From NCBI GenBank assembly GCA_016788115.1, contig JAEURR010000003.1, forward strand, positions 310,001 to 374,000: a stretch of 64,000 nt of DNA, in the 5' to 3' direction. Below the pieces are notes generated by a model, which was given only the letters and a program-made list of their open reading frames with translations, was not told the origin of the DNA and searched no databases. The translations under genes and the position numbers were made by a program. Of this stretch, positions 2,351 through 54,453 are shown piece after piece. This DNA is from Chthonomonas sp. (lineage in GTDB: Bacteria; Armatimonadota; Fimbriimonadia; Fimbriimonadales; Fimbriimonadaceae). The first letter of the stretch is position 1. Every line of letters begins with the position of its first letter.

Positions 2351-2899
2351 ATGTCCAACCCCAGCGAGAACCCGATCGAGAAGAGGCTGCGAGAGGCCCA
2401 AGATCAGTTCATCTTGGAGTGGGGTCGCATGAGTTCCAGCTGGGGCATCAACCGCACCATGGCGCAGATCCATGCGCTTCTCATCGCCACTGGCCGCCCG
2501 CACAGCATGGACGAAATCATCGCGCGGCTCGGAATCAGCCGGGGCAACGCAAGCATGAGCCTGCGCGACCTGATGGAGTGGGGCGTGGTCCAGCGCTTTC
2601 GACGACCCGGAGACCGCAAGGACACCTACGTCAGCGACGCCGACCCGTGGCAGATTTTCGCCCGCGTGGTGCGCGAGCGGAAGCGCCGCGAGCTCGATCC
2701 GACCAAGGGCGCGATCCAGGAGTGCCTGTTGCGGGCACCCGCGGACGAAGAGAGTGCCGACGTGGCCAGCTTCCGGCAGAGGCTCACCGGGCTGCTTCAA
2801 ATCTTTGCCATGATCGACCTCGTCTACGATCAGGTCTTCAAGACCGACGACAGTGTCCAGGATGCCTTTCGCTCCTTCAGTTCCCCCGAAAAGTCGTAG
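2351..2899 (+). CDS. GbsR/MarR-type winged-helix transcriptional regulator
   Basis: 182 residues. The N-terminal 95 residues carry the GbsR-family signature: WGINRTMAQIHALL, then a helix-turn-helix region with ISRGNASMSLRDL and the wing WGVVQRF..GDRKDTY. The C-terminus is helical and probably dimerises. In Bacillus, GbsR represses glycine-betaine synthesis genes in response to choline; here the neighbours do not suggest a ligand. The next gene is lon, 67 bp downstream on the same strand, so this regulator could control lon or itself. The family is confident, the target is not known. Confidence 0.88.
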   Translation: MSNPSENPIEKRLREAQDQFILEWGRMSSSWGINRTMAQIHALLIATGRPHSMDEIIARLGISRGNASMSLRDLMEWGVVQRFRRPGDRKDTYVSDADPWQIFARVVRERKRRELDPTKGAIQECLLRAPADEESADVASFRQRLTGLLQIFAMIDLVYDQVFKTDDSVQDAFRSFSSPEKS

Positions 2900-2966
2900 A
2901 AACTGTCAATTGGCCTAGGAATTGCGGTTCGTTTCCTCGAACAGAATCCGTAGGACCTTAACCTGC

Positions 2967-5318
2967 ATGGCCAAAACCACATCTCGCTCGCCCAAACAAG
3001 CGGTCGCCGCGTCCACCTTGCGTGTCGCAGTGTTGCCCGTCCGCGATAACGTTCACTTCCCTGCGATCGTGACCACGTTGCTCGTCGGCCGCGAGATCTC
3101 TCTCCGCGCGCTGAACGCCTCGACCAAGGACGAAGGGCTTGTGCTCGTCCTCGGTCAGCGAGAGATGACGGTGGACGAGCCGGTCGCTGCAGACATGCAC
3201 CGGTTGGGAACCCTGAGCGAAGTCATGCAAGTACTGCCCATGCCCGACGGCACCGCACGCTTGGTCCTCCGCGGCCTGTCGCGTTGCCGAGTGCAGCGAC
3301 TGAATTCACGTTCGGGTTATTTCGTCGCCGAATGCAGCCCACTCGAAGCGATCCCGGCCCAAGGCCCTTCGGTCGAGGCCCTCAAACGCGAGGCGATTGA
3401 GCTTTTCCAAGACGTCGCGAGTCTCGGGCGCATGGTCCCCACCGAGGCGCTGGAACTGTTGCCGGTCATCGACGATGCCGGTGAACTCGCCGACAACATC
3501 GTCAACCAGCTTGTGTTAAAGCCCGCGGTCAAACAGCAGGTGCTGGAGATGATCGCACCGATTGAGCGCATTGAGCGGGTCATCAAGCTCCTCGCCAGTG
3601 AACGACAAGTCCTCCAACTCCAGAGCGACTTGCGATCGAAGGTGGAACGAGAGCTCGGCAACTCTCAGCGCGAGTATTTCCTGCGAGAGCAGCTTCGGGC
3701 GATTCAGAACGAACTCAGCGGCGACACCGAACTGAGCCCCGAAGGCCAAGAGCTCAAGGTCCGAATCGAGGCAGCGAAGATGCCCGACGCCGTCCGGGAC
3801 AAGGCCTCTGCAGAACTTCGCCGGCTGGACCGCGCCGCTTCCAACTCGCCAGAGAACATGGTCATCCGAACGTATCTGGAGTGGCTGTGCGATCTACCCT
3901 GGTCGATCACGACCGAAGACCGCCTGGACATTCACGAAGCGAGCAAGATCCTGGACCGTGATCACTATGGTCTGCAACGAGTGAAGGATCGGATTCTCGA
4001 CTTTCTCGCTGTGCGCCAACTGAGCCAGTCGTTGCGCGGACCGATTCTGTGCTTCGCTGGGCCGCCCGGGGTCGGCAAGACGAGCCTGGGGCGCAGCATC
4101 GCCGAGGCGCTGGGCCGAAAGTTCGTGCGTCTGTCGCTCGGCGGAGTTCGGGACGAAGCCGAGTTGCGCGGCCATCGCAGAACCTACATCGGTTCTATGC
4201 CCGGCCGCCTCATCCACGGCATCCACACGTGCGGCAGTCGAAACCCGGTCTTCATGCTCGATGAGATCGACAAGATGGGCATGGACATGCGCGGCGACCC
4301 CACGAGCGCCCTGCTGGAAGTGCTCGATCCCGAGCAGAATTCCGGATTCACGGACCACTACGTTGAGCTTCCCTTTGACCTCAGCGCGGTGATGTTCATC
4401 ATGACCGCCAACGTCGTGGAGAGCATTCCGGCCCCATTGCGCGACCGCATGGAGATCATCCACTTCCCTAGCTACACCGAGGCCGAAAAACTCCACATCG
4501 CACGGAGCTACCTGGTGCCCAAGAAGAGTCAGGAACACGGCATCCGCGGCAAGCAGTTGACAATCCAAGACGATGCACTCCAGACCATCGTTCGCCACTA
4601 CACCCGTGAGGCGGGCGTGCGCTCGTTGGAGCGCGAGATCGCGACCGTCTGTCGCAAATCTGCCAGACGCCTCGCCGAGGGTGCAGTCCGGGAAGTCACT
4701 GTCGATGCGGACAACCTGAGCGAATTCCTCGGACGGTCGCGCTACCGCTACGGTCAAGCAGGGGCGCAAGACGAAGTGGGTACCGCGACGGGGCTTGCAT
4801 TCACGGAGTTTGGTGGTGACACGCTCAGCATCGAAGTCAACCTAATGCCAAGCCTGGCCGAGCAACCCAACCTGATGCTCACCGGAAACTTGGGCCAAGT
4901 GATGAAGGAATCGGCAATGGCGGCGGTCAGCTACATCCGGGCGCATCCCGACATCTACGGCCCGTTCCGGCACGATGTCCACATCCACGTGCCCGAAGGA
5001 GCGATCCCAAAAGACGGCCCGAGCGCGGGCGTGACCATTGCAACCGCGCTTGCCTCGGCGGCGACCGGACGCCCAGTTCGGCGGGACCTCGCGATGACCG
5101 GCGAGATCACCCTACGCGGAAACGTACTTCCTGTCGGCGGCGTTCGGGAGAAGGCGCTTGCCGCTCACCGGGCTGGCATCCGTGATATGGTGCTACCCGC
5201 GGATAACATGGCCGATCTCGATGAACTCCCGGTGGAGGTCCGAGATCAAATGTGCATGCACCCGGTCCGGACTCTGGCCGAGGTGTTTGAACTCGCCCTG
5301 CGACCAAAGACGACCTAG
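2967..5318 (+). CDS. lon: ATP-dependent protease Lon
   Basis: 783 residues, the usual length for LonA. The order is N-terminal substrate-binding domain (about 20-210), coiled helical region, AAA+ module with Walker [10 protein letters not shown] (about 365-373), and protease domain. The Ser-Lys catalytic dyad is visible as S686 in DGPSAG and K729 in [11 protein letters not shown]; the 43-residue spacing equals that of E. coli Lon. It degrades damaged and regulatory proteins in the cytoplasm. The start at 2967 was chosen over the upstream frame opening at 2922 because the Lon domain begins right after it and TAGGA lies about 10 bp upstream. Confidence 0.97.
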
Positions 5319-22277: not shown

Positions 22278-22316
22278 TGAATTCGTGCCGAGGTGCGTTA
22301 CTCGGAGAGGAATGTT

Positions 22317-23039
22317 ATGAACCAGTACAACAGAATCACAACGGTCGCGGCGGTGACCTTCTTTGCAAGCATCGCTTTCGCGGTGCCGCCCAACTCATAC
22401 CTTGTGAAGACGGTCAACACCGTCGGTGAGTTGAAGGCCCAGATCCGATCCAACTCGGTGGTGAGCGACCGCTACCAGCGTCACTTCCATATGACCGAGG
22501 GTGAGGTTCTGGATTTCGTTTCGAATCTCCGACTTGCCAAAGTCCAGCAGACCTCGATTTACAGCATTTACGGTGTGCCACCCAAGACCGGCGTATTGCG
22601 CTCTCGCTTGCAGAAGCTGAAAGCGGGCACAAAGATTTGGGTTGACAGCACGGGCCAGCCGATCCTGCAATGGATTTGTGGAAACCCGATGACCCGCGGA
22701 CCCCGCATGGTCGCGGTGAACACCGAGCCGGGCGCGGCTGTGGAGGGCAAGGACACCGATCTGCTCGCCAGCCCGATGCCCGCTGGTGACGCACCCATCA
22801 TCGCATCGAACATCGAGCCGGGAGTACCCCAGCCCGAAGAGATCATCAGCATCATCGACGTGCCTCCCGCCACACCGCACCGCAACAACTACGGCGGATT
22901 GCTCCTTCTCCCGCTCATTGCGCTGATCCCGCGCGGTAGCGGCGGCGAGGACATTCCCCCGGTGCCCGAGCCTGCAACAATGCTCGTCATGGGCGCAGGT
23001 GTGGTTGCCGTCGCAATTCGACGCAAGCGATCCAAGTAA
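22317..23039 (+). CDS. PEP-CTERM-anchored secreted protein, copy 1
   Basis: 240 residues from the ATG at 22317, which follows GGAGAGG; an earlier in-frame codon at 22293 lacks a site. It has a signal peptide, then a conserved domain (about 25-135), a variable linker, a second hydrophobic stretch, and the sorting tail VPEPATMLVMGAGVVAVAIR followed by basic residues. PEP-CTERM tails are processed by exosortase, which is not in this window. The domain shares long stretches with the gene at 23295, notably GTKIWV and PILQWICGNPMTRGPR. I do not recognise the domain. The single conserved cysteine is in the ICGNP motif. Confidence 0.85.
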   Translation: MNQYNRITTVAAVTFFASIAFAVPPNSYLVKTVNTVGELKAQIRSNSVVSDRYQRHFHMTEGEVLDFVSNLRLAKVQQTSIYSIYGVPPKTGVLRSRLQKLKAGTKIWVDSTGQPILQWICGNPMTRGPRMVAVNTEPGAAVEGKDTDLLASPMPAGDAPIIASNIEPGVPQPEEIISIIDVPPATPHRNNYGGLLLLPLIALIPRGSGGEDIPPVPEPATMLVMGAGVVAVAIRRKRSK

Positions 23040-23090: not shown

Positions 23091-23294
23091 GTATGGGTCA
23101 TTACCGGCCCCTACTCGTACCAGAAGATGTCGGTATTTCCAGGACTTTGAGCAAAGATTCTTCGATAAATCCGGAACACCGTGTACACTTGAATAGTCTG
23201 TGAGGCAGAAATGCCACGGGCAATTTGTTTCGGCAATGCCGAGTTAAGCTGATCGCTCGCGAATGCGCGAACTTGGTCCGCTTTGGAGAGGACA

Positions 23295-24119
23295 ATGAAA
23301 TATCAGAACAAAGGCATCGCGACCGCATTGGCGGCAGCGACGCTACTAACCGTTGCGGTAGCCAAGATGCCGCCCAATTCATATCTGATCAGTACAGCGA
23401 ACTCCGTCGGCGAGATCGTGGCGCAGATCGACAAGTATCCGGTCGTCCAAGATCGGTACGAGCGACACTTCGGCATGACCAAGTCCGAGCTAAAGCTCTA
23501 TTTCTCTTCGCTTCGGCTTAGCCGGGTCGAGAGGTCGGGCAACTACCTGGTCTACAACACGCCAGAGAGTACGGGCGAGTTGCGCTCCAAAACCCTGTTC
23601 CTGAAGAAGGGCACCAAGATCTGGGTGAATACGAGCGGCAAACCGATCCTTCAGTGGATCTGCGGCAACCCGATGACTCGCGGCCCGCGCACGGTCGCTT
23701 CGGTAGGCGATGTCGCTCCGGTGGCCGCCACCATCGAGGGCATGAACATCGAGCCGGAAGTGCTGGACGCTCCCAAGATCGAAAACATCGAGACCGATAC
23801 GATCGCGATGGAGCCCAACGTTCCGGAGTGGACGGATGCACCGTTGACCTCGGTCGATATCGCAAACATCCCGGTGGATCCGGTTCAGGCGCCCGCTATG
23901 TCCGTTCCCAACACTCCGGCGATCGCCAGCAGTGGCTGGGACCTGGGACGCGCCTTGCTGGCCCCGCTGGGTGGCGGACTCATCTTCGTCACCGGGACCA
24001 AGAGCCAAGGCTCGAGCAAGCCCATCGTGAACCCCGTTCCCGAGCCCGCGACATTCGTCGCCATGGGCATGGGCGCGGCTTACCTGATTCGCCGAAAGAA
24101 GTCCTCTTTTAAGCGCTGA
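23295..24119 (+). CDS. PEP-CTERM-anchored secreted protein, copy 2
   Basis: 274 residues starting at ATG 23295 after GGAGAGG. It is a paralogue of the protein at 22317: PPNSYLISTANSVGE, VVQDRYERHF and KGTKIWVNTSGKPILQWICG all align residue by residue with copy 1. The linker after the domain is longer and richer in Pro, Asp and Val. The C-terminus ends NPVPEPATFVAMGMGAAYLI plus a basic tail, a PEP-CTERM signal for exosortase-dependent sorting to the cell surface or matrix. Its last 11 bp overlap the convergent peptidase gene. Function unknown. Confidence 0.85.
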   Translation: MKYQNKGIATALAAATLLTVAVAKMPPNSYLISTANSVGEIVAQIDKYPVVQDRYERHFGMTKSELKLYFSSLRLSRVERSGNYLVYNTPESTGELRSKTLFLKKGTKIWVNTSGKPILQWICGNPMTRGPRTVASVGDVAPVAATIEGMNIEPEVLDAPKIENIETDTIAMEPNVPEWTDAPLTSVDIANIPVDPVQAPAMSVPNTPAIASSGWDLGRALLAPLGGGLIFVTGTKSQGSSKPIVNPVPEPATFVAMGMGAAYLIRRKKSSFKR

Positions 24120-25285: not shown

Positions 25286-28237
25286 TTAGTCGCCGACGAC
25301 CTCGAAGTACTGGGACAGCAGCAGATAGTCGAAGAAATCGACCGATCCGTCGCCGTTCAGGTCCGTCTCCATGGGCGAGATGCCCGACGGGCCAGGCGTT
25401 GTCCAACCGGGGTCGGAGCTGTTTCGATCGAAGTTCTCGCTCAGCAAGAGGTAATCGAACAGATCAACCACGTTATCGTTGTTGATATCGCCCGGCAAGA
25501 GCACGAACGAGAGTTCGCCCGCATTCCCCGCCGTCACGTTGAGCCGAGCTCGGCGCAGGAAGCAGTTCGACTTCGCTGTTACCTTGTACTCGCCTGCACC
25601 CACCGTGAGGTTGGACGCGAATCGACCCGAAGCGTCCATCAGTACCGATTCCTCACCGACGACCGTACCCGCCGCATCCGTCAAAGTCAGGTGCGCATAG
25701 CGATCGTGCGGGGAACCGACCAGCCCGACAAGAGTCATCGTTCCACCGATGACGCCTGCTGGCGGACACGGAATCTCGACGTCACCGAGTGCCGTCTTCG
25801 CTGTCGTGTTCAGGTCGCCATCGGCATCATTGAGGATGCTGTTGGCCATGTTGCCACCCGTAGTGGGGTGCAGACCCTGAATACCGTACACGAACGGGGG
25901 TGATCCGATGGTCCCGGTCGAGTAGCCATTGATGGTGAACCAGATGCGGCGACCGGAGGTCGGCAGCGACGACACCGAGGCCGTGCTGTAGTCATAGTCC
26001 ACGCCACCACATGCAGACTCGCACGAACTCTGACCGTACAAGATTTGCGGGCCGATATAGCCGAGGTGTACGGGTAGATTCGTGGCGATCCAGTCCGTCC
26101 CTTCGCACCGATATTCGATGCCTCGGGCCGAGTGTGCCGTCCAAGGATAGGTCCACTCGGGGACGCCGACGTTGACCTGTCCATAGGGCGCTGGGTAGCT
26201 GAGTTCACCCAGACCGCGCTCCGCGACCATCATCTTGCCGTCCGGGCCAAACGAAATGTCCGACACCGGCATGGACCAGTTGAAAGTCTGGAAGTGCGGA
26301 ACGGCGAACTCCATCTGAAGCGTGGCGTCGAAATCGCCAGCATTCGAACCACTGGGCTGAATGCCGATGCTCCAGATCTCGTTGAACTGCGATGGATTCG
26401 GGTTACCCCGGTCCACTCGCCAGCGAGCGAAGTACAACCGCCCACCGTGGTACTGAACACCCCAGACGCGGTCGCCCAGGCGAACCATGCCGGCGGGGGA
26501 TCCCGCTGCCACGTCGCTTTGCCAGCCAGCGGTTGTGTCAGCCGGATCGTATCGGCTGAGCCAGGTGCCCTGGCTCGTTGCCGAACCTCCGGTACCCTTG
26601 ATCCGATAGATCATGCCGTCTTCGAGGTTGGTCACGAACAATTGGTCGTGATCGCCATCGTAGGAGATGTTCCCAAGCTCTGGGAAGCTGTCCGGATTGC
26701 TTGGCGTTGGCGAAGTATTCGGCAACGCGATGTAACGGAAGATCTGACCCGTGCCGTTTTGGATCATGTAGACCTGACCGTGCACCGGGTTGACCTGCGG
26801 CAAGTAGTCGTTGCCAAACGCGCTCGTCTGGGTCACGAAGATGTTGCCGTACTTGTCGAGCGTGACTCCGAACACCGTACCGAGGTTGCGGACATTCCAC
26901 AGCCCCATCGGATTCACCGTGGAGATCGGCCCATGGTAGCCGCGCGGGAGCGCGGTCGGGACCCAATCTGCGCCGAGCGGCACCGCGGTCGTTTGGTAGC
27001 TGTTCAGATTCTGGATCGCCACAACCGGCATATCCAGGTAGTTTGCGCCTGCGGGCTGCTGACGCGATGCCCAGCACGTGATGACAGCGACGGTTCCAGG
27101 GAACGCCGCGCCATAGGTCGTGCCGTTGATCGAGTCTTGATAGATCGGCTTGCGATCCATACACTTCCCTTCAAGCGGACAGAAGCATGGAGGAATCTCG
27201 ATCGGAACGTCCTTTCGACAACACTCCTTGGCCTTGTCGCGCAGGACGAGCGGCAAGACAAGCGTCGTACCCGGAGTCGCACCGGTAATGGTGATACACA
27301 CCGTGAAGGTGCCACCGTACTGCACGCCATTGAGTTGCGTGACCGCAGGGTTGATCGTGATGCCGGGAGGCGGCGCGATCAGCAAGAAGAAGAGAGCGTT
27401 TGGATCGAGGCTCTGAATGGTCGCGCACCAGGTCACGCTGCCGTCCGCATTGCAGACCGACGACTGCTCCAGGATCTGGAAGCAATCGCATTTCGGCACA
27501 TCGATTGTTTTGAATGCTCCGCAGCACTTCGTGAGCTCGCGGTCGTGCATTTGAATCTGCCAAGTCCATGGTTGACCTTGCGGCACCCCGCAGACGGTGA
27601 GCGTCAACGTGATGCTTTGGCCGGGTGCCAGAGGCGTACTCAGCGGAATGTAGTTGGCAGTCGAGCTCAGGCTGGAAGTCACGATGACCGGCGGCGCGTT
27701 GACCGTGAAGATGTGGGCAATCGGATACGGTGCCAGGTTGGTGATGGTGACGTCCATCGTAAAGCAACCGGTTCCGTCCGTTTTCCACAGAATCCGCTTG
27801 ACGTCGATCTTGGCGCAATTCTCAATGTAGCCAAAATCTGGGCCGTCCTTGATGCCGGGACCTACATCGACGACTGCCGAGTTGTTCCCGGGGCGGGTCG
27901 GATACAGCCCGTCCGGATTTGGTCCTTCCACAAAGTAAGCGCCCGTGGGAATGTCGGTCGCCATGTAGCGACCGTTTGCGTCGCTAATGGGGCTGTAGAC
28001 ACCGCCAGGACCGCTGATGATAACGGGCAGGCCGGGAATGCCGGGTTCACCGGGATTGTAAACCCCGTTCTCGTTTGAGTCGAAGAACACGCGCCCCTGC
28101 AGCGTGCCGTGACCCGTCTGAGCCCATGCTCCCAGCGGGAGTAAACAGAAAATAGCGAGTAGCAGCAGCAATCGAAGCCGTTCGCCGAGCTGGGGCGCTC
28201 GTGCGACTCTTGGATCGCCTCGTCTTTGATAAGCCAT
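25286..28237 (-). CDS. Giant secreted protein: SdrD-B-like domain, Cys-rich repeats, beta-propeller-like region, dockerin-like C-terminus
   Basis: 983 residues from ATG 28237, preceded by GGAGGT at 5 bp; the frame opens earlier at 28276 without a site. A signal peptide ends near AWAQ. Residues about 35-105 look like an SdrD B-type calcium-binding Ig-like domain (FFDSNENGVYNPGEPGIPG). Two cysteine-rich Ig-like units follow (about 110-340), each closing with a CC...P.C.C pattern. The middle (about 370-830) has repeated GNIFVTQT and GDHDQLFVTN style blades suggestive of a beta-propeller. The C-terminus carries two calcium-loop helices, DINNDNVVDLFDYLLLS and DLNGDGSVDFFDYLLLS. It is probably extracellular; no catalytic motif is evident. 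Confidence 0.78.
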   Translation of the reverse strand: MAYQRRGDPRVARAPQLGERLRLLLLLAIFCLLPLGAWAQTGHGTLQGRVFFDSNENGVYNPGEPGIPGLPVIISGPGGVYSPISDANGRYMATDIPTGAYFVEGPNPDGLYPTRPGNNSAVVDVGPGIKDGPDFGYIENCAKIDVKRILWKTDGTGCFTMDVTITNLAPYPIAHIFTVNAPPVIVTSSLSSTANYIPLSTPLAPGQSITLTLTVCGVPQGQPWTWQIQMHDRELTKCCGAFKTIDVPKCDCFQILEQSSVCNADGSVTWCATIQSLDPNALFFLLIAPPPGITINPAVTQLNGVQYGGTFTVCITITGATPGTTLVLPLVLRDKAKECCRKDVPIEIPPCFCPLEGKCMDRKPIYQDSINGTTYGAAFPGTVAVITCWASRQQPAGANYLDMPVVAIQNLNSYQTTAVPLGADWVPTALPRGYHGPISTVNPMGLWNVRNLGTVFGVTLDKYGNIFVTQTSAFGNDYLPQVNPVHGQVYMIQNGTGQIFRYIALPNTSPTPSNPDSFPELGNISYDGDHDQLFVTNLEDGMIYRIKGTGGSATSQGTWLSRYDPADTTAGWQSDVAAGSPAGMVRLGDRVWGVQYHGGRLYFARWRVDRGNPNPSQFNEIWSIGIQPSGSNAGDFDATLQMEFAVPHFQTFNWSMPVSDISFGPDGKMMVAERGLGELSYPAPYGQVNVGVPEWTYPWTAHSARGIEYRCEGTDWIATNLPVHLGYIGPQILYGQSSCESACGGVDYDYSTASVSSLPTSGRRIWFTINGYSTGTIGSPPFVYGIQGLHPTTGGNMANSILNDADGDLNTTAKTALGDVEIPCPPAGVIGGTMTLVGLVGSPHDRYAHLTLTDAAGTVVGEESVLMDASGRFASNLTVGAGEYKVTAKSNCFLRRARLNVTAGNAGELSFVLLPGDINNDNVVDLFDYLLLSENFDRNSSDPGWTTPGPSGISPMETDLNGDGSVDFFDYLLLSQYFEVVGD

Positions 28238-47888: not shown

Positions 47889-50800
47889 TTACCAATCACC
47901 CTCCGTGTCGTACTCATCGCTCAACAAGAGGTAGTCGAAGAAATCGACGCTACCATCTTCGTTGATGTCAGCGGTCGGATCCCATGCCGAATCGCTCGGC
48001 GTGGTCTCGTAGGCTGCCGACAGGATCAGATAGTCGAAGAAGTCCACAAAGTTGTCTGCATTACAATCACCGGGGAGGAGATTGATGGTGCCGACGTTCG
48101 TGGCGACCGACGAGCTGATCGACTTGATGACCGATCGTGTCTTGTAGTGGTACGGGTAGTCGAGGAACAGCACCACGCGCTTGGCTCCGAAGACAACGTT
48201 CGGGATCGAGAAGTTACCCGAAGCGTCCATCGGCACGTAGTTCCAGCTTTCTACCTGGTCCCACCGATAGGATGGTGCCGTGCTTCCGATGCCGACCCAA
48301 ATGTACCGACCGGCGAGCGGAGGAGCATTGCCGCCCTTGCCCACGAGATTGGCCCTCCCCGTCAACGTGACCGGCAGTGCGTAGCGTATGCCGTCCGTCG
48401 TGGCGTAACCGTATTGCGGGGCCAGGTTCTCTGCGGACACGGTGATGTCGTAGATGTGGTTCTGCACCAGTGACAGACCCGTCACCGTGTAGTTCCAATC
48501 GCGGACATCGCCAGTGGCGACGCGCACCCAACTGGTGATGTACGTCGCAGCTGTTCGATCGTAGATCAAGTACCACCAGGCGGCGACGCACATGTCTTCA
48601 TCGGCGTGTGCCGTGAAGTGCAACTGCGAACCATTGCCCGTTACGATGCCGTCGTCCGTCGCGGTCATGCCGTTCGGAGGTGTATTGTCCCACGACCAAA
48701 TTCCGTCGGTATAGCCGAACGTGTCGTATCCTTCAACGTTACGAGCAACCACCGTCACGTACACCTTAGTGTTCGCGGGCAGCGAAAGACCCGTAATCGT
48801 CTTATCGAAGCTTGTGGCAGTTGACGCGTTAAACACCCAGTCTTGGTAGTTGCCGGCACCCGGCGTACTTCCCACGCGAGTCCAATAACCTAAGATTGAG
48901 CTCTGCGAATCGTAGGAGTACGCAGTGACGTGCACTGACGAGGAGCTTTGCTGACAAGCACCGTCATCGTATGCGTCGCAGTAGTCAGGTGGAGAAGTAT
49001 CCCTCTGCACCGTGATGTTTCGATAGACGTTTGAGCTATCGCCGGCATCGAGCCAGACGCTGCCACTGTCACCCTGTCGCCACATACCCGCGCTGACATC
49101 GTACACGCCGTACAATGGTGAGCTTGGGCCAATGAAGCTGAGAGACAGCCAGACGTTCTTGGTGCTTCCAGGAGTGATCGCCGCGGTCGTCAACTCTTGA
49201 CCCATCTGGGGCCAGAGCCAGTTATCCGATGGATCTCGCAGGAGTCCCCAGAAGCCGCTTCCCGGTACGTAGTTCTGGCTACCGTAGTTCTTCACGTCAT
49301 AAGACATGCGCCCGTAGCCGCCCCACCACCAGACGCCGCCATTGTAGGCGTCTACGCCAGCGTACAGTCCCAGTGTCGGACGATCGTTGCCCTGGCGCAT
49401 GCCATGGGCCATCATTTGACCATTGAGCTGAGGACGAGCACCCCAACCACGGCCGTACCAACCGTTGTACCAATCCACGATGTTGTAGCATCGGTGGCCG
49501 CCGGTTGAGTAGTTCGCCATGATGTCACCGATGACACCCTGGTTGCCGCTCATCCAGTCGTACGCGTCTTGGTTGCCGTCGCTAATGTCGACAAGCATCG
49601 CGCACACAGGAGCTTCCGAGTCGTACCCAGAACTGTTGGTTGCGCCATCGCTGTTGCCATTGGCAACGCCGTCGCCGTCCCAGTTATTCTCCAGGTTAAA
49701 CGAGATGAAGTTGCCCGGATTGTTGTCGTTGTAGGTTGGCTCGTTCTGGGTCATGATCATGAAGTACGAGCCGTACCCTTCTGACCAGGCTAGTGCTTGG
49801 TTATAGTGACCCAAGAAAGAGTGCCCTCCACCGGATCCAGGCGGGTAGTCCTGGTTGAAGATTGAGTCCATGTGGTGATGGCCGTACTCGTGGAGCACGA
49901 CGTCAGGTGAAGTCCACTCAACTTCCTTGAGGTGTATCTTGTTGTCTGTGAACGCCGTGTAGTACGCACCGTCCGTGCCGCCGTTCTGCCAGAGCGCCTG
50001 GACGAATGAGGGCGTATGCCCCATATACAGGACCGACTGGGCCCAGCCCCGCGTCATGGCTTGGAGCACCGAGAAAGCTCGGTTGGAGGATCCATCGTTG
50101 ATCTGCCAGCCGCCGGTGGCAACCGTTCCACCGTTCGTTGTCCACGGATAGCCGCCGACTCCGGCAGCGAACTCGGTACCACCGTAGTTCGTGACTTGAG
50201 TCGCCCCGTTGGTGGTGGTCCATTTAAGCGTGAAGTTTGTGTTCCCTGTTGTCGTTACAGTGATCGTATAGTTCCCCGCCGCGTCAACGATCGCGTTGCC
50301 GATCGAGGCGTTATCGCCCTGTCGGATGGCGAAGACCTGGGCACCGTAGGCGTTCTCCAATGAAGCTGTCGGCCCCATGGTTTTGAAGTTTCCAGTGACC
50401 GTCGTCGTCTGGGTGAACACCTGGCCGAAGTCGGGCGGTTGAATTTCATCGGCTTCCGGCAACGGATACAGGCGCGCATCCACCGGATCCGGTAGCTTGA
50501 CGAAAGCTGGCACCGCCTGAACTTGCGCCTCAGTGGCCGCATTCAGGGGTGCGGGATTCGTTCGGCTTACGCGAACGCCATTTGCATCGGCTACGAAGTA
50601 CAGGTCTTGATCTTGACCGTACGTGTAGCCTTCCATCTGGTAGCGAACCCGGGCGGTCACCTTGAAAGTGCCGTATCCCGGTAGAGTCACCGCTTGCTTG
50701 AACGAGCGCGCTTGCTCGGCAGCCTGCTTATCATCAAGCGTGGTGGCCGACCGCGGATTAAGCGCCGCTCCGCCTTCGGTGAACCACTCGATCGTGGCGT

Positions 50801-51077
50801 TGGATGCTTCACCGACGTTGAGCGCGTCGAACTGGAGCCGCATGGGCACCCCGATCGCGGCGTCATCGAGAAGCACGAGTTGAGTCTGAACAGGCGCAGT
50901 CGCTGCGCATGACTCGCCGATCCGAGCGTTGAGCTTACGAACCAGCGATTGAGCTAAAGGCGAGGCTTTTGCGGAGAGGTGGAAGTGACCACCTTCTTCC
51001 TTGCCCCAAGAACCCAAGGGTGCAGCGACGGCAAGCATCGTAGCAACCCAAAGGCCGGCGAACCTTCGACAAACCAT
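47889..51077 (-). CDS. Giant secreted metalloprotease-like protein with dockerin-like C-terminus, copy A
   Basis: 1062 residues from ATG 51077 (GGAGGTCAATT upstream). A signal peptide ends near GSWG. An N-terminal Ig-like region (to about 200) leads to a zinc-metallopeptidase site, HEYGHHHMDS at about 396, and a downstream glutamate in SEGYGSYF at about 433, as in gluzincins. C-terminal to it are fibronectin-like modules (TGLSLPANTKVYVTVVARNV and TGLSLVQNHIYDITVSAENL). The protein ends in two calcium-loop helices, DCNADNFVDFFDYLILS and DINEDGSVDFFDYLLLS. It is a tandem paralogue of the gene at 51247. Peptidase activity is inferred. Confidence 0.8.
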   Translation of the reverse strand: MVCRRFAGLWVATMLAVAAPLGSWGKEEGGHFHLSAKASPLAQSLVRKLNARIGESCAATAPVQTQLVLLDDAAIGVPMRLQFDALNVGEASNATIEWFTEGGAALNPRSATTLDDKQAAEQARSFKQAVTLPGYGTFKVTARVRYQMEGYTYGQDQDLYFVADANGVRVSRTNPAPLNAATEAQVQAVPAFVKLPDPVDARLYPLPEADEIQPPDFGQVFTQTTTVTGNFKTMGPTASLENAYGAQVFAIRQGDNASIGNAIVDAAGNYTITVTTTGNTNFTLKWTTTNGATQVTNYGGTEFAAGVGGYPWTTNGGTVATGGWQINDGSSNRAFSVLQAMTRGWAQSVLYMGHTPSFVQALWQNGGTDGAYYTAFTDNKIHLKEVEWTSPDVVLHEYGHHHMDSIFNQDYPPGSGGGHSFLGHYNQALAWSEGYGSYFMIMTQNEPTYNDNNPGNFISFNLENNWDGDGVANGNSDGATNSSGYDSEAPVCAMLVDISDGNQDAYDWMSGNQGVIGDIMANYSTGGHRCYNIVDWYNGWYGRGWGARPQLNGQMMAHGMRQGNDRPTLGLYAGVDAYNGGVWWWGGYGRMSYDVKNYGSQNYVPGSGFWGLLRDPSDNWLWPQMGQELTTAAITPGSTKNVWLSLSFIGPSSPLYGVYDVSAGMWRQGDSGSVWLDAGDSSNVYRNITVQRDTSPPDYCDAYDDGACQQSSSSVHVTAYSYDSQSSILGYWTRVGSTPGAGNYQDWVFNASTATSFDKTITGLSLPANTKVYVTVVARNVEGYDTFGYTDGIWSWDNTPPNGMTATDDGIVTGNGSQLHFTAHADEDMCVAAWWYLIYDRTAATYITSWVRVATGDVRDWNYTVTGLSLVQNHIYDITVSAENLAPQYGYATTDGIRYALPVTLTGRANLVGKGGNAPPLAGRYIWVGIGSTAPSYRWDQVESWNYVPMDASGNFSIPNVVFGAKRVVLFLDYPYHYKTRSVIKSISSSVATNVGTINLLPGDCNADNFVDFFDYLILSAAYETTPSDSAWDPTADINEDGSVDFFDYLLLSDEYDTEGDW

Positions 51078-51195
51078 AATTGACCTCCAAAGAAACGGGG
51101 ACCCGACAAAGCATTTTTCCCGGGCGTCCCTTAGAATTCTAGGTTACAGCAGATTCGAGCGATTGCAAGCACTATTTACACCTTAATGTGAAAAA

Positions 51196-51230
51196 GCCCC
51201 CGTTGCCAGCAGGCAACGGGGGCAGTTTTT
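51196..51230. terminator. Terminator between the two giant paralogues
   Basis: A perfect 12-bp stem (gcccccgttgcc at 51196-51207 with ggcaacgggggc at 51212-51223) with a 4-base loop and T runs on both strands (agttttt forward, tttttcac reverse). It lies 16 bp after the stop of the gene at 51247, which reads leftwards, and upstream of the 51077 start. Confidence 0.9.
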
Positions 51231-51246
51231 CAATGATCAGAACGAC

Positions 51247-54200
51247 TTACCAGTCGCCGTCCTTCTCATAATTGTCGCTCAACAGGAAGTAGTCGAAGAG
51301 ATCGACCGTGTTGTCCAGGTTGAGGTCTGCGTTGGTGTTGTATCCAGCGTCCCCGAGTGACTTCTCGTACGTGCCGCTAAGCACCAGGTAGTCGAAGAAG
51401 TCGCAGGAGTTGTCACCGTTACAGTCTCCGTTCAGGAGCGTAAAGGTGCCCGCATTGTAGTTCGCACCGGTCGGCAACGTTGCATTCTTCGTGCGCGTCA
51501 TCCATCGGGCGACGTCACCCGGCAGAACCGCGATGCGCTTGCCTTCGAACCACGTATTGTCGGTGACAGTGAACACACCCGACGCATTCATGGGAACCAG
51601 TTTCCACTGATAGATTTGGTCCCACTTGCTGGTCGGCGATTGCGAACCAACACCCACCCACACGTTACGACCGTTGTACAGGCCCGCTGGCAAGCCAGGC
51701 ATGACCACCTTACCGGTCAGTTGGTAAGGAATCGCGACGCGGATACCATTCGAATCGCCATAACCGAACAGGTTAGAGGCGTTCTCGGCCGCGACGTGAA
51801 TGATGTACGTTCGACCGTTCACCAGGCTGAGGCCGGTGGCGGTGTAGTCCCAGTTGGTAACGTTGCCCGTTAGGACTTCGGTCCAACCGCGGACGACCGC
51901 GCCAGTCGTATCGTCTTCGATCCAGTACCACCACGAGGCAATGCAGCCGTTGGATTCAACCGCTGTCGAGACCCAGTGAAGCTGCGTGAGGCTGTTGGTG
52001 GTCGCGCCATCGTCGGTGCAGGTTACGCTCGTCGGAGCGGTCCCATCCTTTGCAAGGACGCCGTCACCGTTACCGATGGTGTAGTTGTAGTCCATGTTGT
52101 ACGCCGCGACGGTCACGTAGTACTTCACGTTGAGCGCGAGGCTGAGCCCGGTCGCCGTGTAGTTCCAAGTGCTAATGTCGCCCGTAGCAACCCACGTCCA
52201 ATCACGGATGTTGCCCGTACCCACCGCGGTACCGATTCGGTAGTAGAACCCACGGATGGAGCTCTCACTTTCGGTGGTGGTTGCGGTGAACGGCAAGCTC
52301 GTGAGGCTGTTTCCGCACACGCCGTCGTCGACGTTACAGAAGTCAGGACCGTCAGGATCGCGGACGACCGTGACGTTCTCAACCGTGTTCGTTCCCGGCT
52401 CTGCAGGGAGCAGGTTACGGAAGACCGCGCTGCTATCGTACTGACCCGCGGTCAGCGTGAACGCACCGATCAGATCTTCATTGGGGAAGACCTGCGTGGT
52501 GGTCTCATAGAGTGCGTTCGTGGCACCCGAAGCGAGCGACCCGGCACCCTCAAAGCCGATCTGCGATCCGCCGTCGTGATCGTTGTTACCAGGACCACGC
52601 AGCCAGACCCACAGCGAGTTGTAGGCCACGTTCTGCGAACCATAGTTGCGCGCAGTGTACGAACCGCGGCCGTAGCCAGCCCAATACCAGGTACCGGCGT
52701 ACTTATCCATACCCGCCGAGAGTCCGAGGACCGGTCGGCTGGCAACCTGCTTCATACCATGAGTCATGGCTTGGCCATAGACCTTAGGCAAATATGGCTG
52801 GTTGCGGACGGAGAATCCGTCGATCCATTCTTGAATCTCGTACACGTTGTGGCCCGCCGGGTTGTAGTTCTGAAGAACATCTTGGCCAGGGCCGCCGCCA
52901 AACGTCGAATAGTCGTAGGTGTCGGAGAAGCTATCGAACAGGTCCGCCATGTAAGCACAAACTGCCGACTCGGTATCGTAACCGAGGGCGTTCGAGGTGC
53001 CGTTGTTGTTCCCGTTCGGGGTGCTGTCGCCATCCCAGTTCTCTTCGAGGTCGAAGGACCACGTGTTGGTCGGGTTGTTGTTGTTGTAGGTCAGCTCGTT
53101 CTGAACCTGGATCATGAAGTACGAGGCGTACCCTTCGGTCCAGGCCAAGTTCACGTTGATGTGATCGAGGAACCCGTGCGCGCCACCTGTGTTGGGTGGC
53201 CAGTCCGTCATGCTGTTCGACGAATTCTGGTGGTGATGACCGTACTCGTGAAGAATGACGTCCGGCGAGAAGAAGTGATCCTGTCGGAGTTGAATCCGAG
53301 TCAGATCATAGAATGCGCCACCAGTCGTACCGTTCTGCCACTTGGCTTCGCAGTACACGGCGTCGTGGCCTAGCGTGTAGTTCGATTCCGCCCAGCCACG
53401 GCTAAGCTCTCGATTCACGTAGAATGCGCGATTGTAGTTATTGTCGTCGTAGTTCCAGCCGCCCGAGTCCACGGTTCCGCCGTTGATGACGAACGAGCTG
53501 AAGTAGCCGCTCTGATAGTCGGCCAGCGCGTCGGTCTTACACGCGGTTCGCGAGTTGCGAGCACGCAGGCGAAGCTTACATGTTGTCGCCCCCGCAGTCG
53601 TGACATCCCCGGAGTAGTTACCGTTGATGTCTATGATAAACGTGGCGAGTACGGCATTATCCGAACTGCGCACGATATCCACCGCGCCACCATACGCGCC
53701 GACGAAGTTGTTCAGCGGGCCGCGAACGACGAGGCTACCGGTGACGGTCGTAGTGACCGTACCAAAGAGCGTGTCTCCGGGGACCTCGATCTCATCGGCC
53801 GGGATTGGCCGGAGACCTGCGGTCGGTTCAGGCTGAACGATTTCCAGGCCCGTGTTCGGCTTGGGAACCGTTCCGATCGCGCCAGTCGGTAGGACTGCCG
53901 GATCCTTGTCAAGCACCTGAATGTCGCCACCGCTCACTACAAACCAAACCGACTTGGTTTGGGCGTAGCTGCTGGTGCCTTGAGCGATGGTTGCCGTCGC
54001 CGACACTTTGTACGTGCCGTCTCCGGGAATCACCAGACCGTTGTTGAACGTGTAAGCACGTCCCTTCTCGGCAGTGCCGGAATCGGTCGCACCCGCGCGC
54101 GAGAGCCGAGCGCCGCCCGTAGCGGACCAGCGCACGGTGGCGTACTTGAAATCGCCAGCGTTCAGGAAATTGTAAGTCAAAGCCAGTTCCCTGCCGATCG

Positions 54201-54453
54201 CAGGGGTACTGCCCAAAATGAGTTCTGACTCGATCGGTGCGAGCGACTCGCAACCGACTTCGAGTGATCGATCCGCCAACTTGTTTGCCAACCGCGACGC
54301 GAGCTTCCCGGCTCCCGGTGCCACAAAGACGTCGTACTTCGTGAGTACGTCACCCGGGTGATCGCCGTAAACTGCGCCGATTTGCGCATTTGCTCCCATT
54401 GCGGCTAGACAAGCAAGAAGCGAGAATCCTATGCGGATTTTCCAACTATGCAT
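51247..54453 (-). CDS. Giant secreted metalloprotease-like protein with dockerin-like C-terminus, copy B
   Basis: 1068 residues. The start ATG 54453 was chosen because GGAGGT lies 4 bp before it; the first in-frame ATG at 54465 has no site. A signal peptide ends at ANAQ. The catalytic-type site HEYGHHHQNSSN (about 401) with downstream EGYASYF matches copy A; other shared blocks are VWFVVSGGDIQVL and GDTLFGTVTTTVTG. Three fibronectin-like modules and the ending DCNGDNSCDFFDYLVLSGTY plus DLNLDNTVDLFDYFLLSDNY follow. Divergence between the copies suggests an old duplication. It probably acts outside the cell. Confidence 0.82.
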   Translation of the reverse strand: MHSWKIRIGFSLLACLAAMGANAQIGAVYGDHPGDVLTKYDVFVAPGAGKLASRLANKLADRSLEVGCESLAPIESELILGSTPAIGRELALTYNFLNAGDFKYATVRWSATGGARLSRAGATDSGTAEKGRAYTFNNGLVIPGDGTYKVSATATIAQGTSSYAQTKSVWFVVSGGDIQVLDKDPAVLPTGAIGTVPKPNTGLEIVQPEPTAGLRPIPADEIEVPGDTLFGTVTTTVTGSLVVRGPLNNFVGAYGGAVDIVRSSDNAVLATFIIDINGNYSGDVTTAGATTCKLRLRARNSRTACKTDALADYQSGYFSSFVINGGTVDSGGWNYDDNNYNRAFYVNRELSRGWAESNYTLGHDAVYCEAKWQNGTTGGAFYDLTRIQLRQDHFFSPDVILHEYGHHHQNSSNSMTDWPPNTGGAHGFLDHINVNLAWTEGYASYFMIQVQNELTYNNNNPTNTWSFDLEENWDGDSTPNGNNNGTSNALGYDTESAVCAYMADLFDSFSDTYDYSTFGGGPGQDVLQNYNPAGHNVYEIQEWIDGFSVRNQPYLPKVYGQAMTHGMKQVASRPVLGLSAGMDKYAGTWYWAGYGRGSYTARNYGSQNVAYNSLWVWLRGPGNNDHDGGSQIGFEGAGSLASGATNALYETTTQVFPNEDLIGAFTLTAGQYDSSAVFRNLLPAEPGTNTVENVTVVRDPDGPDFCNVDDGVCGNSLTSLPFTATTTESESSIRGFYYRIGTAVGTGNIRDWTWVATGDISTWNYTATGLSLALNVKYYVTVAAYNMDYNYTIGNGDGVLAKDGTAPTSVTCTDDGATTNSLTQLHWVSTAVESNGCIASWWYWIEDDTTGAVVRGWTEVLTGNVTNWDYTATGLSLVNGRTYIIHVAAENASNLFGYGDSNGIRVAIPYQLTGKVVMPGLPAGLYNGRNVWVGVGSQSPTSKWDQIYQWKLVPMNASGVFTVTDNTWFEGKRIAVLPGDVARWMTRTKNATLPTGANYNAGTFTLLNGDCNGDNSCDFFDYLVLSGTYEKSLGDAGYNTNADLNLDNTVDLFDYFLLSDNYEKDGDW

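Follow-up and report, generated by a model that had tools for sequence, protein, structure and literature searches.

C-terminal X-dockerin dyads with a genome-specific code word probably point to an undescribed protein-assembly system in Chthonomonas sp. and its relatives

Introduction

Dyads of an X module and a dockerin attach scaffoldins to cohesins on the cell surface. To our knowledge, there is no accepted explanation for the dockerins of bacteria that carry no cohesins. Cellulosomes are defined in surveys by their cohesin-bearing scaffoldins (PMC11557425), and the species-specific residues of type I dockerins are located at positions 10, 11, 17 and 18 (PMC6780208, PMC12484212). Cohesin recognition has been assigned to positions 10, 11, 17, 18 and 22, and calcium binding to positions 1, 3, 5, 9 and 12 (PMC6780208). 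Here we describe the C-terminal tails of three secreted proteins, two of them HEYGHHH-motif twins encoded in tandem, from a 64,000-nucleotide stretch of a Chthonomonas sp. genome (C3:310001-374000 of a 2.4 Mb genome that is 97% complete), hereafter called the window. These tails are X-dockerin dyads that recur throughout the genome and among its relatives, and a known module family is used here in a previously unknown way. The tails probably point to an undescribed protein-assembly system on the cell surface.

A shared X-dockerin dyad

An earlier note, made from the letters of this DNA alone, had proposed that the secretome shares one C-terminal module resembling type I dockerins. Pfam and PDB profile matches support the resemblance, and the sharing extends further than was claimed. 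A genome-wide search with a 60-residue tail as the query yielded 34 clear C-terminal copies with E-values from 7e-37 to 8e-12, far beyond chance. The Pfam model Dockerin_1 gave 36 matches in the genome, and 29 of the copies score over the Pfam cut-off. Two of the 36 matches were set aside, namely a chance match at C7:115575 and an internal dockerin at C7:391927 in a 1,499-residue protein. The latter protein (L027:977-5473, minus strand) has an IgGFc_binding domain and fn3, with its dockerin-like stretch at residues 124-182 and not at the C terminus.

All 34 carriers were read, and each ends in the tail at its very C terminus. At the N terminus, nearly all have a signal-peptide-like stretch, as scored by a simple hydrophobicity rule rather than a trained predictor. 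The bodies of the carriers are unrelated to one another and include three subtilases, a reprolysin, a trypsin, a GHL10 glycosidase-like protein, BNR and sortilin propellers, and the HEYGHHH twins; many others have no assigned family. A scan of viral contigs for further dyads found none.

The common unit is a beta module of about 80 amino acids followed by a type I dockerin, and all 34 copies can be aligned over about 150 residues. The beta module has the conserved pattern G...L...G...Y.v..K..WL, after which come NGD and the dockerin. A profile built from the 34 dyads matches PDB entries across both modules (4u3s, 2e-15; 4wi0, 7e-15; 2b59, 8e-10; 3kcp, 2.5e-9). Judged by sequence, the tail has the two predicted calcium loops of about 22 residues, with ligands at positions 1, 3, 5, 9 and 12, and the helix that characterize PF00404, and the predicted X beta module directly precedes the dockerin as in other X-dockerin dyads. 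Aspartate is nearly invariant at dockerin positions 1, 5 and 12 in eight genomes, and position 9 varies by genome (D, T, A or G). The earlier note had missed that the tail is an X-dockerin dyad, as well as the code word differing between species and the lack of any recognisable cohesin in this genome and 40 relatives, both of which are described below.

A genome-specific code word in both dockerin repeats

Each of nine related genomes has its own word at dockerin positions 9-11, 14, 17 and 21, which recurs unchanged in the two repeats and across unrelated carriers. The words are VDFFDYLILS..YE (G000), VTIFDYLxLS..FD (G001), VTIFDYIxLS..FD (G002), V.IGDYxxLS..FG (G016), VDIADYSxLA..FD (G007), VGSSDFDxVV.NFG (G023),.TNADYSxWA.NNG (G004), VDDTDLAxVL..FG (G025) and VDLxDLNxVL.NFG (G026). 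The most alike are those of G001 and G002, both of one genus. The G004 tails (L169-L182) have a polar, aromatic word, TN[AF]DYSIWA.NNG, and the words elsewhere are mostly hydrophobic.

The information that a column holds about the genome reaches 1.1-1.8 bits at positions 9, 10, 11, 14, 17 and 21, symmetrically across both repeats. Calcium ligands 1, 5 and 12 hold almost none, and most of the beta module holds about 0.1 bits. Three of the five cohesin-contact positions rank with the strongest code columns, and the other two, 18 and 22, are less informative (0.24-0.54 bits). Identity within versus between genomes is 0.76 versus 0.30 in the code columns, 0.52 versus 0.46 in the other dockerin columns and 0.27 versus 0.25 in the beta module, for which G016 is an exception (0.39 versus 0.28). 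Variation at positions 2, 4, 6, 15, 18 and 19 is unlinked.

Because the code columns were picked on the eight genomes from which tails were first taken, two checks were made. The ninth genome, G026, was added later, played no part in choosing the columns, and has its own word. In the second check, the genome was assigned from repeat 2 by means of repeat 1 of other proteins, which was right for 168 of 174; positions outside the code gave 0.21 against 0.20. The tail style goes with the genome and not with the carrier protein. Homologues of the twins in G001, G002, G016 and G033 each have a tail in the style of the genome that encodes them, and the homologue in G008 (L046), a genome without dockerins, stops right after the HEYGHH domain with no tail.

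At residues that are identical between two tails of the same genome, the codons differ in 0.42-0.54 of cases in three genomes. For G000 the mismatch is 0.43, compared with the 0.50 at saturation expected from codon usage (two housekeeping genes). Serines at shared tail positions use both TCN and AGY codons. One G000 pair is recent, with 97% nucleotide identity in the dockerin. Because the codons are near saturation and serines of both codon types occur, the word is maintained by selection at the protein level and not by recent copying of DNA. The alignments suggest twofold symmetric, species-specific recognition residues such as those of dockerin-cohesin docking, and since each genome shares one code word, one partner per genome would be expected.

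Absence of recognisable cohesins

A search with PF00963 gave no cohesin: there are zero matches at E<=10 in the Chthonomonas genome, and no match passes the cut-off in any of 41 genomes (this one and 40 relatives). Since no recognisable cohesin was found in these genomes, the tail system is not a cellulosome as known. The PF00963 searches likewise revealed no cohesin-bearing scaffoldin, and the dockerins are carried mainly by proteases and proteins of unknown family, not by cellulases or hemicellulases. The earlier suggestion that the tail may bind a scaffold or mediate surface attachment holds in part: the genome-specific code gives indirect but strong support for a common partner, and surface attachment is presumed.

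Dockerins are unevenly distributed, with most genomes having none, a few or dozens (range 0 to 97). Among 70 genomes of the same family, 31 have none, 25 have 1-2, five have 3-6 and nine have at least 18. Exosortase was considered as a factor explaining the tails and rejected, as it is present in 39 of the 41 genomes, with or without dockerins.

A proposed docking system and a candidate partner

We consider it probable that the C-terminal dyad serves as a docking tag across the genome, with one partner or partner family per genome, and the sequences make it similarly likely that this tag carries a species-specific code read by a common partner. The beta module would space and stabilize the dockerin, whose two near-identical EF-hand halves would both expose an identical recognition face (positions 9-11, 14, 17 and 21). 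Since the carriers in one genome share one face, all of them would bind a single partner, or a single family of partners, encoded by that genome, and when the site on the partner drifts, the entire set of tags would follow. This partner presumably exists, binds the code face, and keeps the secreted hydrolases at the cell surface or close to it. With less certainty, the gene neighbourhood in relatives suggests that it may be a PEP-CTERM-anchored protein with a domain of about 180 amino acids, and not a cohesin scaffoldin.

In genomes that carry between one and five tags, the gene beside the dockerin gene is often one for a protein of 220-290 amino acids, which has a signal peptide, a beta-looking domain of about 180 amino acids and a PEP-CTERM segment. 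This candidate adjoins a dockerin gene in ten genomes. The first set comprises G021, G050, G052, G054, G059, G010 and G079. One gene intervenes in G059, a second dockerin gene adjoins the candidate in G079, and the mechanically called open reading frames (ORFs) of candidate and dockerin gene share a base in G021, G052 and G054. Beyond this seed set, the two genes are adjacent in G049, where the ORFs overlap by 10 bases, and in G076, where they are about 10 bases apart. The tenth case is a weak match: a widened profile detected a PEP-CTERM protein in G001, a member of the window's genus (L063; E 4e-4 among 2,537 ORFs), with a reading frame that overlaps the end of a dockerin gene. Other low-copy genomes inspected alongside these (e.g. 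G042, G056 and G083-G085) have no such neighbour.

The TIGR02595 score exceeded its 16-bit cut-off in all six candidates tested, two of them barely (16.1 and 16.4 bits). The candidate family matches nothing in Pfam and nothing meaningful in the PDB, and none of the papers searched combines 'dockerin' and 'PEP-CTERM'. When 88 genomes were searched with the profile, 13 had the candidate, of which 12 have dockerins; among them are the tag-rich G016 (with three copies), G076 and G077. The sole genome with the candidate but without a Dockerin_1 match at E<=1e-3 is G048 (L243), which might hold a relic or have a divergent tail. In G007, two PEP-CTERM ORFs (L044:1722-2846, plus strand, and 2868-3332, minus strand) are located beside a dockerin gene, and the second matches the partner profile weakly (E 0.15). 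The PEP-CTERM neighbours of dockerin genes in the Chthonomonas genome itself (L022 and L030) gave no convincing match to the profile.

Several observations weigh against this proposal. AlphaFold2 modelling of the dyad from three sequences gave a pLDDT of 40, and because this prediction failed, the assignment of an EF-hand pair rests on the sequence profiles and the near-invariant calcium ligands. The tails taken from other genomes are the best-scoring ones and not all of them. The candidate partner occurs in just 13 of 88 genomes compared with 54 of 88 for dockerins, and with the profile before widening it was not found in the window's own genome at E<=0.1. The association by presence has a p value of 0.01 overall and of 0.1 for genomes outside the seed set. 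Because this association is modest, gene neighbourhood is the stronger evidence for the candidate. A possible but tentative identification is that exosortase-anchored PEP-CTERM receptors with a new domain of this size hold dozens of X-dockerin-tagged hydrolases on the surface by docking without cohesins, through a lock-and-key code rewritten in each species.

Alternative explanations

An unlikely alternative is a cellulosome-like system whose true cohesins are too divergent for PF00963. The match of the dyad to scaffoldin X-dockerins and the location of the code at cohesin-contact positions would suit such a system, as would a short local similarity between the PEP-CTERM candidate and cohesin strands. 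However, this similarity is non-significant, and an hhalign comparison of the candidate with cohesin gave a probability below 1%, where the cohesin alignment was shallow (its first sequence is identical to PDB 1anu/1ohz). The negative PF00963 searches and the predominance of proteases and unassigned proteins over cellulases among the carriers also argue against it.

Less probable again is that a machine for export or outer-membrane sorting recognizes the dyad, as happens with T9SS C-terminal domains, and that the code follows the machine. The tag is strictly C-terminal, occurs on all sorts of secreted proteins and is unevenly spread among genomes, and many-to-one sorting pairs are a known type (PMC3237569). 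However, two symmetric copies of the code suit the dual binding mode of dockerins better than a sorting signal, and PEP-CTERM sorting is already present in the genome, with exosortase distributed regardless of dockerins. No machine of this kind was found in searches that did not cover T9SS parts.

That there is no partner at all, and a stabilizing calcium module has merely spread by lineage-specific duplication or gene conversion, is very improbable: recent copying would produce likeness within genomes, and some pairs such as that in G000 are recent, but the beta modules of the same dyads (G016 excepted) have almost no genome signature and the other dockerin columns little, the codons are near saturation, and the unlinked variation at six positions speaks against block copying.

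This one lineage offers many natural versions of the code among close relatives. Genomes with one to five tags provide a compact operon of tag and candidate receptor, so that two small proteins would allow a direct test of what orphan dockerins bind. The system could also supply protein engineers with several docking pairs that differ from one another.

Dyad carriers in the window

All three carriers are encoded on the minus strand. As the earlier note had described, the twins are tandem paralogues of about 1,060 residues, and its coordinates agree with the ORFs: twin 1 (47889..51077) has 1,062 amino acids and twin 2 (51247..54453, with a likely ATG start at 54453) has 1,068, with 41% identity over 1,039 columns, near end to end. 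Both show the anticipated signal-peptide-like N terminus, HEYGHHH, EGY(G/A)SYF, and a terminal loop pair of the form DxNxD...DFFDYLxLS. Fibronectin-like modules had also been proposed, but Pfam gives no fn3 match; repeated beta-like segments are visible at residues ~690-900.

The dockerin of twin 1 (47892..48071; VDFFDYLILS / VDFFDYLLLS in its two EF loops) was identified by PF00404 (E 6.7e-8) and the tail query. It is immediately preceded by the X-like beta module (48072..48368), which was placed by the 34-dyad alignment and the PDB X-dockerin match. In twin 2, the genome Pfam scan and the tail query place the dockerin at 51250..51429 (CDFFDYLVLS / VDLFDYFLLS), which on its own falls under the Pfam cut-off (E 0.0054), and the dyad alignment places the X-like module at 51430..51732. 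The third carrier (25286..28237, read from 28237) is a 983-residue protein with an SdrD_B-like N-terminal domain, and it shares the ending as had been claimed. Its dockerin (25289..25492; VDLFDYLLLS / VDFFDYLLLS) has a Pfam E-value of 1.2e-9 and was also found by the tail query, and its X-like module (25493..25804), defined by the dyad alignment, is matched in part by CarboxypepD_reg. Near this gene are two PEP-CTERM proteins (22293-23039 and 23283-24119, plus strand) that score over the TIGR02595 cut-off, so this genome operates two distinct systems of C-terminal tagging.

The HEYGHHH domains of the twins are located at 49293-50342 and 52651-53700 (minus strand), with putative zinc sites at 49872..49892 and 53230..53250, the latter placed by the twin and homologue alignments; further family members are at L035-L038, L040-L043 and L046. 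HExGH and the downstream EG[YW] do not vary among 11 homologues, which come from this lineage and from Planctomycetota, and a conserved E..V region lies further on. The domain has no relative in Pfam or PDB, and its AlphaFold2 model from six sequences has a pLDDT of 31. The conserved residues suggest that it is probably an unnamed family of putative gluzincin metallopeptidases. A scan of genome contigs gave only distant relatives, from Planctomycetota and Elusimicrobiota.

Comparison with known systems

The closest structural counterparts are the type II X-dockerin dyads of CipA and ScaA (2b59, 3kcp, 4u3s and 4wi0), in which a C-terminal beta X module is likewise followed directly by a dockerin. 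Unlike those scaffoldin dyads, the dyad described here is carried by 34 individual secreted proteins, no cohesin was found, and its code residues differ from theirs and are hydrophobic (F/L-F at positions 10-11). With the type I dockerin-cohesin pairs of Clostridium thermocellum and C. cellulolyticum, the tails share two F-hand repeats and a twofold symmetric recognition face. They differ in that neither cohesin nor scaffoldin was found in the genome, the carriers are mainly proteases and proteins of unknown family, and the code varies by genome inside one family. A third parallel is with the PEP-CTERM/exosortase and GlyGly-CTERM/rhombosortase systems (PMC1569441, PMC3237569), where one C-terminal tag is present on many unrelated secreted proteins, there is one reading partner per genome, and the distribution is patchy. 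In contrast to those sorting signals, the tag described here appears to be a folded calcium module with no transmembrane helix, and exosortase occurs in genomes both with and without dockerin tags.

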